The notes beneath the pieces were generated by a model. The model made no database searches. It was given only the letters and a program-made list of their open reading frames with translations, and was not told the DNA's origin. The position numbers and the translations under genes are program-made. A DNA stretch of 22,162 nt from Treponema sp. (lineage in GTDB: Bacteria > Spirochaetota > Spirochaetia > Treponematales > Treponemataceae): NCBI GenBank assembly GCA_022510885.1, contig JAFLSP010000012.1:1-22162 (forward strand). Direction: 5' to 3'. How positions within the stretch are numbered: position 1 is the first letter of the stretch; the number at the start of each line of letters is the position of its first letter. This document shows positions 4,731 to 7,896 of the stretch, piece by piece.

Positions 4731-6440
4731 ATGAACGAACGGCTCAAGAAAGTTACAGCCAACGCAAGGGAACGGTGGGAGAAGTGGTCCCTTGTCCAGA
4801 GAATCATCCTTGTCGCTATCGTCGTTGCGGTCGTCGTGGCGATTGTCTTCGCGAGCAGGCTTTCGGCAAAGCCGACGAACGTCTCGTTGTTTAACGCGGC
4901 AATCACTGACCAGGCGACGCTCGACAATATCCTTTTCCGTCTTGACGAAGGCAATGTCAAGGCGACGACCTCAAACGGCTTCATCTACGTGGACGACGAG
5001 CGCACGGCGCGCAAGTGGCGGGCTACGCTGATTTCGGAGGACTTGGCTCCGAACGGCATGGACGCGTGGTCGCTGTTTGATACGACGAGCTGGACGACGA
5101 CCGATTTTGAGCGCAACGTGAATTTGCAGCGTTCGGTCACACGCATGGTCAAAGAGCACATTGAATCCTTGGACGACGTGGCGAGCGCGGATGTCGTTAT
5201 CACTCCGCGCAGGGAAGCGGTGTTCAGGGAGGATTCCGAGCCGGCTAAGGCGTCGGTCATCCTCACGTTCCGCCCCGGCGCGAACGTCGCCGCCGGCTCG
5301 AAGAAAGTGCAGGGCATTCAGAACATCCTGATGCGTGCCATTGCGGGCGTGGTAAGTGCGGACAACGTGATTATCACCGACAGCAACGGCACGGTGCTCA
5401 ACGATTTTGACAGTCTCGCGGAGATGGAGCGGCTCACCGTCATTCAGAAACAGCAGAAAGAGATTGCCCGCCTTGAGACGGAGCTGCGCGCGAAGGTGCT
5501 TTCCGCTTTGCGCCGCACATTCAGCGACGACCGCGTGCGCGACTTGAACGTGAACTTGCAGATGGATATGTCCGAGGTGACGCGCGAGCAGACGATTCAC
5601 ACGCCGTTCGAGCGTAGGGCGCGCACGCCTGGGCTTCCCTACGACGACTCGGAGTACGTCGATTCGGTGGCGATTGCGACGCAGGAAATCGACAAGGAAT
5701 TCACGGGCACGGGCTACAATCCCGAGGGGCCTGCCGGCGTAGAGGGGCAGAATCCGCCGGTCATGAGCGATATGTCCAACATGATTGGCAGGACGACCGA
5801 GCGGGCGACCACTACGAATTATGCAATCAACACGGAGCGGCGCGTGACGGTGGTCAGCCCGGAGCAGGGGCGGCGCACGGTCTCGGTCAACATTGACGGC
5901 CGGTGGCGCGTCGTCTATGGCAAGGGGCATGTGCCGGTTCTGAACGAGGACGGCACGGGCATCGAGCGTGAGTATATTCCGCTTTCCGAGGATGACCTTG
6001 AGAACGCGCGTTCGCTTATTCGCGATGCGATTGGCTATGATGCCACGCGCGGTGACAGCGTGACGGTGACGAACATTGCGTTCGACCGCGAGGAAGAATT
6101 TGAGGCAAAGGACGATGCCTATTTTGCTAAGCAGCGGCGCAACCGCACGATTATGGTTGTGCTGCTCGGCATCGCCGTAATTCTGCTGTCGTTCATCCTT
6201 TTCCGCTTCATCAGCCGTGAGCTGGAGCGCCGCCGCCGCCTTCGCGAGGAAGAGATGCTGCGCCGCCAGCAGGCGGAGCGCGAGAAAGCGTTGTGGGACG
6301 CTCGGCAGGAAGGCATGGAAGTCACCATGTCCGTGGAAGAGCGCAAGCGCGCCGAACTGCTTGAGACGGCGGTCGCGATGGCAAAGGAGCACCCCGAGGA
6401 CGTGGCGATGTTGCTCCGCACGTGGATGATGGAGGAATAA
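4731..6440 (+). CDS. fliF: Flagellar MS-ring protein FliF
   Basis: FliF forms the inner-membrane MS ring on which rod, rotor and export gate assemble. The 569 residues show a first membrane segment at about 22-42 (LVQRIILVAIVVAVVVAIV), a large periplasmic part with the ring-building motifs, and a second segment at about 470-490 (TIMVVLLGIAVILLSFILF). An Arg-rich helix and a cytoplasmic tail follow. The tail ends HPEDVAMLLRTWMMEE (554-569), the known FliG-binding type of motif with Pro555 and Trp565. The ATG at 4731 has GGGAGGGG upstream. The next gene begins one base after the stop, and its C-terminus resembles this FliF tail. Confidence 0.96.
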   Translation: MNERLKKVTANARERWEKWSLVQRIILVAIVVAVVVAIVFASRLSAKPTNVSLFNAAITDQATLDNILFRLDEGNVKATTSNGFIYVDDERTARKWRATLISEDLAPNGMDAWSLFDTTSWTTTDFERNVNLQRSVTRMVKEHIESLDDVASADVVITPRREAVFREDSEPAKASVILTFRPGANVAAGSKKVQGIQNILMRAIAGVVSADNVIITDSNGTVLNDFDSLAEMERLTVIQKQQKEIARLETELRAKVLSALRRTFSDDRVRDLNVNLQMDMSEVTREQTIHTPFERRARTPGLPYDDSEYVDSVAIATQEIDKEFTGTGYNPEGPAGVEGQNPPVMSDMSNMIGRTTERATTTNYAINTERRVTVVSPEQGRRTVSVNIDGRWRVVYGKGHVPVLNEDGTGIEREYIPLSEDDLENARSLIRDAIGYDATRGDSVTVTNIAFDREEEFEAKDDAYFAKQRRNRTIMVVLLGIAVILLSFILFRFISRELERRRRLREEEMLRRQQAEREKALWDARQEGMEVTMSVEERKRAELLETAVAMAKEHPEDVAMLLRTWMMEE

Positions 6441-6441
6441 C

Positions 6442-6834
6442 ATGGCAAACGATTCTTTTCAGATGGTCACCGAAAACTTCCGCCGTCCGCTTTCCGGCAA
6501 GGAAAAGGCTGCCATCCTGCTGGGCGAGCTTGGCGGCAGCGCGGAAAGCGTTTTTGAGTACCTGAGCGATGCCGAAGTCAAGAAACTGCGCAAGGCGATG
6601 CGCTCGCTGGGCAAGAAAGTGAACTGGGCGGACGAGACCGCTGTGCTCGCCGAGACGAACAAATGGGGCGTGCGCAAGGGCATCGCCAAGCCTATCCATA
6701 GTGACGCGGAAATTGCCGCGCTTATCAAGACGACGGAACGGAATGAAAAGCAGAACGAGTTGCGGAATTTGTTCTTGAAAAATCCCGACGCGATTGCGAA
6801 CGCGCTCGGCGCGTGGCTCAAGGAGGACAAGTAA
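6442..6834 (+). CDS. Short FliG-N-like protein with a FliF-C-like tail, between fliF and fliG
   Basis: I do not recognise this 130-residue protein as a named family. Residues 17-56 (LSGKEKAAILLGELGG...EVKKLR) align with the N-terminal domain of the FliG encoded next door (LTGRQKAAIFLVSIG...EVETL). The last 24 residues (KNPDAIANALGAWLKEDK) resemble the FliG-binding tail of FliF (HPEDVAMLLRTWMMEE), sharing the Pro, Ala, Leu and Trp spacing. FliG middle and C-terminal domains, which bind FliM and make torque, are absent. It is not a decayed fliG: the frame is intact, GGAGG sits six bases before the ATG, and its own 3' end supplies the AGGAGG site for fliG. The inferred role is an accessory protein at the MS-ring/C-ring junction. 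The FliG-N relation is fairly secure; the tail resemblance rests on a short motif. Confidence 0.85.
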   Translation: MANDSFQMVTENFRRPLSGKEKAAILLGELGGSAESVFEYLSDAEVKKLRKAMRSLGKKVNWADETAVLAETNKWGVRKGIAKPIHSDAEIAALIKTTERNEKQNELRNLFLKNPDAIANALGAWLKEDK

Positions 6835-7896
6835 ATGCCAGATGCAAAACCGGGCAGTCTGAAACCTGCCGCCGGAAAAAAAGCTACGAAGGACTACAAG
6901 AACCTCACTGGGCGGCAAAAAGCGGCTATTTTCCTCGTCTCGATTGGCTCCGACGTGTCTTCGGAGGTGATGAAACACCTGCGCGAAGATGAGGTGGAGA
7001 CGCTGACTTTTGAGATTGCGCGCCTTGAGACTATTGACGCGGAATTCAAAGACCAGGTTCTGGAGGAATTCCAGGACCTGATGAACGCGCAGAACTTCAT
7101 CACGACAGGCGGTATTGACTACGCGCGCGAGTTGCTGGAAAAGTCGCTCGGTTCGCAGAAGGCAATCGACATCATCAACCGGCTTACCTCCAGTTTGCAG
7201 GTTCGCCCGTTCGACTTTATCCGCCGCACTGACCCGGCGCATCTGCTCAACTTTATTCAGACGGAATATCCGCAGACTATCGCGCTGATTCTTGCGTATC
7301 TTGAGCCGAGCAAGGCCGCAGTCATCTTGCAGAACCTGCCGGTGGAAATCCAGCCGGAAGTCTCGCGTCGCTTGGCGACGATGGACCGTACATCGCCGGA
7401 CGTTCTGCGCGAGGTGGAGCGCGTTCTTGAGAAGAAGCTCTCTACGCTGTCAAGCGAAGACTACACGGCGGCGGGCGGCGTCGAAGCCATCGTCGAAATC
7501 CTCAACCTCGTTGACCGCTCTTCCGAGAAGTCCATCATCGAAAGCCTTGAGGAAGAGGACCCGGACTTGGCGGAGGAAATCAAGAAGCGGATGTTCGTGT
7601 TCGAGGACATCGTTATGCTCGACGACCGCGCAATTCAGAAGGTCCTGCGCGAGGTGGACACGCAGGAACTGTCGAAGGCACTCAAGTCAGTCGATACGGA
7701 AGTGCAGGACAAAATCTTCCGCAATATGTCAAAGCGCGCGGCCTCCATGCTCAAGGAAGACATGGAGTTCATGGGGCCGGTGCGTCTCAAGGACGTGGAA
7801 GAGGCGCAGCAGAAAATCGTCTCCACGATTCGTCGTCTGGAGGATGCGGGCGAAATCGTCATCGCGCGTTCCGGCGAAGACGAGCTGGTTGTGTAG
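6835..7896 (+). CDS. fliG: Flagellar rotor/switch protein FliG
   Basis: FliG sits on the cytoplasmic face of the MS ring, binds FliF through its N-domain and FliM through its middle domain, and makes torque against MotA. The 353 residues are full length. The N-domain begins near LTGRQKAAIF (24-33). The middle-domain motif reads EYPQTIA (144-150), with Tyr where EHPQ-type FliG proteins have His. The C-terminal torque helix is present (FVFEDIVMLDDRAIQKVLREVD). The ATG directly follows the TAA of the previous gene, with AGGAGG at 6821-6826, so translation is probably coupled. Many spirochaetes carry two full FliG copies; only one is in this window. Confidence 0.96.
   Translation: MPDAKPGSLKPAAGKKATKDYKNLTGRQKAAIFLVSIGSDVSSEVMKHLREDEVETLTFEIARLETIDAEFKDQVLEEFQDLMNAQNFITTGGIDYARELLEKSLGSQKAIDIINRLTSSLQVRPFDFIRRTDPAHLLNFIQTEYPQTIALILAYLEPSKAAVILQNLPVEIQPEVSRRLATMDRTSPDVLREVERVLEKKLSTLSSEDYTAAGGVEAIVEILNLVDRSSEKSIIESLEEEDPDLAEEIKKRMFVFEDIVMLDDRAIQKVLREVDTQELSKALKSVDTEVQDKIFRNMSKRAASMLKEDMEFMGPVRLKDVEEAQQKIVSTIRRLEDAGEIVIARSGEDELVV

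Follow-up and report, generated by a model that had tools for sequence, protein, structure and literature searches.

In the flagellar rotor, the C-terminal tail of FliF and the N-terminal domain of FliG (FliG-N, or D1) co-fold into one composite domain, which oligomerises, and coevolved pairs between the two agree with the crystal contacts, according to the available text of three reports (PMC6079021; PMC7355467; PMC11528121). Engineered FliF-FliG fusions (PMC6445934, PMC6079021) place both halves on one polypeptide, and the FliF tail of T. maritima has a hinge before the last of its two helices (PMC6079021). Spirochaetes may carry a second FliG-related gene, as in Borrelia with fliG1 and fliG2 (PMC7225975, in part). 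In Borrelia the C ring is described as 46-fold symmetric (PMC6663468); for Salmonella, an MS ring of 33 subunits has been reported together with a C ring of 34 (PMC11087270), and according to a review FliF and FliG are equal in number (PMC7355467). An open question of the flagellar motor concerns the joint between the MS ring and the C ring and the way in which unequal or varying subunit numbers are accommodated.

Here we describe a Treponema gene whose product combines, by sequence comparison, a FliG D1 head and a FliF C-terminal tail in one chain, with the D1 fold of the head also predicted by modelling. Like the engineered fusions it holds both halves, with the FliG part leading and the FliF part at the end, the reverse of their order; unlike them it is natural and is encoded alongside intact fliF and fliG. 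Searches of open-access papers turned up no account of a hybrid of this kind. In databases its relatives are mostly named hypothetical protein, apart from one cluster named FliF/YscJ and one named FliG.

The locus and the two halves of its product

The window, the whole 22,162-nucleotide stretch analysed, is an entire contig (G000:C24) of a genome of 2.0 Mb that is 88% complete. Its closest protein matches, so far as they carry an organism name, come from Treponema or Treponemataceae. Pfam matches outline a flagellar run of rod proteins, fliE, fliF, the hybrid ORF, fliG, fliH, the export ATPase and fliJ. On the forward strand, the MS-ring gene fliF (4731..6440; TIGR00206, E 2.3e-104) is followed by the hybrid gene (6442..6834, ATG to TAA, 130 aa), recognised by profile matches and conservation, and by an intact C-ring gene fliG with N, middle and C domains (6835..7896; TIGR00207, E 6.6e-149; Pfam). 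The hybrid ATG lies 1 nt past the fliF stop, and the hybrid stop directly abuts the fliG ATG at 6835. An earlier note on this DNA had described an intact frame with its own ribosome site that also supplies that of fliG, and inspection of the forward strand bears this out: a Shine-Dalgarno GGAGG lies within the end of fliF (6431..6435) and an AAGGAGG, serving fliG, within the end of the hybrid (6820..6826).

The D1-like head spans residues 15-80 (6484..6681, forward strand), with helices predicted at 19-38, 43-56 and 62-78. Pfam FliG_N (PF14842) matches residues 17-73 above its gathering cut-off, the fold match to FliG D1 (5TDY, 5WUJ and Salmonella C-ring structures) covers residues 15-80, and the hybrid profile aligns with the organism's own FliG over hybrid residues 16-94, so that the FliG-N-like segment, placed by the earlier note at 17-56, is real and longer than proposed. 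In contrast to FliG, this D1 is free-standing and lacks D2-D5. The FliG middle and C-terminal domains PF14841 and PF01706, both present in the adjoining fliG, had no match in the 130 residues, and the TIGR00207 score (24.8 bits, residues 16-73 only) is below the 226.7 bits of the equivalog cut-off. The hybrid head has a constraint of its own: E29, E65 and G76 hardly vary among 212 hybrids, and at the aligned positions 51 FliG sequences from the same set of loci carry mostly S, an invariant K and an invariant M. A linker follows (residues 81-99; 6682..6738, forward strand) that is weakly conserved in the alignment and varies in length (block mean pLDDT 62 and 50).

The FliF-tail-like C-terminus (residues 100-130; 6739..6831, forward strand), delimited by profile tests and predicted structure, has two predicted helices (100-113, 115-128) and an Asn-Pro hinge, an arrangement like that of the T. 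maritima tail. Its core motif, P115-x3-A119-x2-L122-x2-W125 (6784..6816, forward strand), has the spacing of the organism's own FliF tail (residues 546-569; 6366-6437, forward strand; profile comparison) and conforms to the P-x3-A-x2-[LIV]-x2-W that the FliG-binding tail of FliF shares with the hybrid at the extreme C-terminus. The collected loci included 101 with a copy; after removal of 15 that repeated a place already represented, 86 copies were analysed. The Ala-x2-Leu-x2-Trp motif, with close substitutes allowed, is found in 85 of them and the preceding Pro in 75.

An hhalign comparison of the hybrid tail profile (86 copies) with a FliF tail profile (51 sequences) scored 35.75, against 8.29 +/- 2.05 (maximum 15.32) for column shuffles, none of 200 reaching the real value; under other settings, run without the control, the score was 28.75. 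A hidden Markov model built from the final 24 columns of the hybrid alignment was run on 3,100 unique ORF ends from the collected loci. Thirty FliF ends scored 16.9-25.2 bits, behind or among the weakest hybrids, and all remaining ends scored 6.8 or less; nine initially unlabelled rows were judged by sequence to be five hybrids and four FliF. The FliF-tail relation first suggested by the shared spacing is therefore above chance, and among these ORF ends only FliF tails approach the hybrids. The whole-hybrid profile aligned to the whole own FliF only at residues 545-568 of 569 (E 4.8e-4, probability 32%). Against the whole PDB it found FliG first and then Salmonella FliF 516-558 at E 0.25, the right protein and the right place at a value not significant alone. 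T. maritima FliF (5tdy_A), crystallised with FliG-N, has the P-x3-A-x5-W spacing of the hybrid and gave E 0.49 to the own FliF tail. The FliF ring-building domains PF01514 and PF08345 had no match in the 130 residues; the tail is thus joined to a FliG head where FliF would carry its membrane and ring-building parts. Taken together, Pfam, the fold match and the tail profile tests support the reading of the protein as a FliG-N/FliF-C hybrid.

The overlap with the fliG Shine-Dalgarno was considered as a cause of the tail likeness, since the last residues of the hybrid, Lys-Glu-Asp, encode that site. An acidic pair within the last four residues is common in copies preceding fliG (27/32) and rare in dispersed copies (14/54), and the motif is kept in both; the acidic end is therefore probably in part nucleotide-driven and the Ala-x2-Leu-x2-Trp motif probably not. 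This explanation was rejected for all but the acidic end.

Separately, the M-ring entries 12dr, 12ds, 12dt, 12du, 12dw and 12eq in the PDB contain a FliF very close to that of the window (E 5.7e-123) and might have the native FliF tail in place.

Distribution, placement and selection

A single-sequence search gave matches in 27 of 97 relatives. With a 76-row profile at E <= 1e-12 the hybrid was detected in 78 of the 146 genomes of the genus (35 of the 63 good-quality ones), once per genome except for two copies in G168, and a family-wide search found it in 113 of 274 genomes and 4 of 20 genera. A phylum search with an older profile covered 296 genomes, of which 294 were listed; its list of matches ends at weak ones. 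On this list full-length matches appear in 18 of 29 members of the genus and in 2 of 20 genomes from the family's other genera. Among the matches listed for the other 245 genomes no full-length hybrid was present, and theirs cover only FliG D1. By the matches listed, full-length copies belong to part of one spirochaete family. Many gut and oral Treponema carry the gene. Record titles (59 loci) name a metagenome genome labelled T. bryantii, two T. socranskii strains and Treponema sp. JC4, C6A8 and Marseille-Q4130, and a T. pectinovorum protein is among the family members.

No copy was detectable in 68 of the 146 genus genomes, although 137 have a fliF match, so the hybrid is dispensable. The nine genomes that had no fliF match were considered as flagella-less controls and dropped: all nine have an flhA match, as do G175 (in fragments) and the window's own genome, so the missing fliF looks like an assembly gap. 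The flhA match is partial in G041, G098 and G175.

Nor is the gene tied to the fliF-fliG gap in which it was first noticed, since 32 of the 86 copies lie there and 54 elsewhere, some of the latter near contig ends. The 59 loci with named titles comprise 27 with fliF and fliG, 1 with one of them and 31 with neither. No hybrid copy was found in 20 short-gap junctions (L102-L121). Copies of the fliF-fliG class are tightly coupled to their neighbours. A tree of 83 different rows and 136 columns, midpoint-rooted and with many open forks, explains the placements with 4 changes, where shuffles require 26.1; one side holds 31 fliF-fliG and 2 dispersed copies and the other 52 dispersed copies and 1 fliF-fliG copy. 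Genes flanking the dispersed copies are common to at most 7 of the 54 loci. When these neighbours were compared with 20 window proteins, the sole similar one was a FliG-like gene in G173: at this locus (L080, G173:C115), unique among the 54, the hybrid stands directly before a FliG C-terminal-like gene with 40% identity to FliG 205-343. Sigma-28-like promoters, scored with a consensus sequence, were no more evident at the 54 dispersed copies than in shuffles (mean 8.22 vs 8.16 of 12), with one of the 54 at >=10.

Selection was estimated over whole reading frames (Nei-Gojobori) in 19 close hybrid pairs. dN/dS was 0.06-0.27 in 17 of them, one pair having no amino-acid change and one being saturated; where defined, it was 0.00-0.03 for FliG pairs and 0.02-0.18 for FliF pairs. 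These values and the conservation rule out a decaying duplicate. A profile relation to FliG-N and FliF-C, predicted FliG-N helices and carriage of the gene by relatives are likewise the opposite of the outcomes that the earlier note had named as telling against its reading.

Further FliG-related genes were observed. The window's genome has a diverged second FliG under the FliG cut-off (G000:C16:343-1308, a 436-aa frame) like spirochaete FliG1; it is separate from the hybrid and covers nearly the whole FliG profile. Many Treponema genomes have extra FliG-like genes, mostly frames of ~240-300 aa matching approximately FliG 115-350 (D3-D5, no D1-D2), for example L181 (G020), L182 (G133) and L183 (G016), with up to four per genome (G150, G176) and some clustered (G020, G176). 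Counted by eye in the 45 genomes with three or more matches (matches to E 1e-20), FliG-like genes additional to both the main fliG and the FliG1-like one occur in 26 of 78 hybrid genomes vs 10 of 68 without the hybrid (Fisher p 0.012, kinship uncorrected, a lead only). In L184 (G097:C6:1000-3539) a single frame has ~490 residues of another protein, FapA/DUF342-like by eye only, and then FliG D3-D5 (57% identity). G014 (C32, C105) and G105 (C114, C152) each have two near-full-length fliG, reflecting two systems or a mixed assembly; the two fliF matches of G014 are on the same contigs as its two fliG.

Possible roles at the FliF-FliG junction

With neither a membrane part nor FliG D2-D5 recognisable, the hybrid is excluded as an ordinary subunit of the MS ring or the C ring; judged by published ring structures, it would in particular be without the D2 hairpin that extends from each FliG to its neighbour. 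One chain with both halves could close on itself or onto a sister copy, link FliF with FliG, or act as a competitor of either. In view of the composite domain in the literature, the presence of both its halves on one chain and the lean to self-pairing set out below, we consider it likely that the hybrid acts at the FliF-FliG junction, and of the individual mechanisms we favour a closed form that exchanges halves. In this form the tail of the hybrid would be folded into the head of the same chain or of a second copy; the protein may then open and, by exchange, pair with FliF tails or FliG D1 domains that are left without partners while the rotor is assembled or remodelled or where symmetries do not match. 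As a complete account, this is our tentative best explanation, held with a little less than even confidence.

We lean to self-pairing because both halves change faster than their partners and because a second structure model (pTM 0.76) places the tail with good confidence. The model of the window protein (pTM 0.65) is less sure of the tail, at moderate confidence (block pLDDT 60, 79, 80), and head-tail contacts were not part of either output. In mean-field DCA of 212 sequences (Neff 78), head-tail couplings made up 12 of the top 60 vs 19.7 expected, no excess, with a head-head pair (A23-L49, z 7.9) as positive control; the closed form is therefore unproven. This result and the less sure tail count against our explanation, as do the 54 of 86 copies away from fliF and fliG, with sigma-28-like promoters no better than in shuffles, and the 68 genus genomes in which no copy was detectable. 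Given a junction role, a closed or homotypic form at rest is slightly favoured, having been evenly balanced before the second model; an open two-ended bridge is then clearly less probable, and a pure competitor a shade less probable again.

The open two-ended adaptor proposed in the earlier note, in which the head takes a FliF tail and the tail enters a FliG D1, giving a longer link or an added ring layer, or fitting unequal FliF and FliG numbers, is overall rather unlikely. Both binding halves are kept across the family on a variable linker, and the 46-fold Borrelia and 33/34-mer Salmonella rings cited above would suit such a fitter; the matching numbers of the review leave less need for one. 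The two halves are also much more variable than the FliF tail and FliG, which are near invariant, close to half of the genus does without the hybrid, and by the architecture in PMC11087270 the hybrid, having no D2, could not continue the D1-D2 chain of FliG. Equally unlikely is a competitor or assembly timer, whose head would cap FliF tails or whose tail would cap FliG D1, delaying or limiting C-ring assembly and setting flagellar number or timing. Loss of D2-D5 would leave just such a binding-only fragment, and coupling would give co-synthesis with fliF and fliG in 32 of 86 copies; against it, no flagellar promoter was detected at dispersed copies, and we know of no dominant-negative data. 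A non-flagellar role, or a fast-turnover duplicate retained for something other than the motor, would suit the scattered positions (54/86), divergent sequences and patchy presence and is improbable in view of the conserved FliF-like tail and FliG fold, the purifying selection and the operon coupling in one clade.

The comparisons point to the hybrid as an undescribed rotor accessory. More speculatively, a self-closing, half-swapping single-chain FliF/FliG junction unit might allow treponemes to have MS and C rings of unequal or changing subunit number and, with the D3-D5-only FliG paralogues, to build rotors from split FliG modules, a proposal we regard as a long shot. Consisting of little more than the two interface halves, this natural protein is a ready tool for the joint between the MS and C rings and possibly a regulator of that joint, and its carriers include the named species T. 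socranskii and T. pectinovorum.
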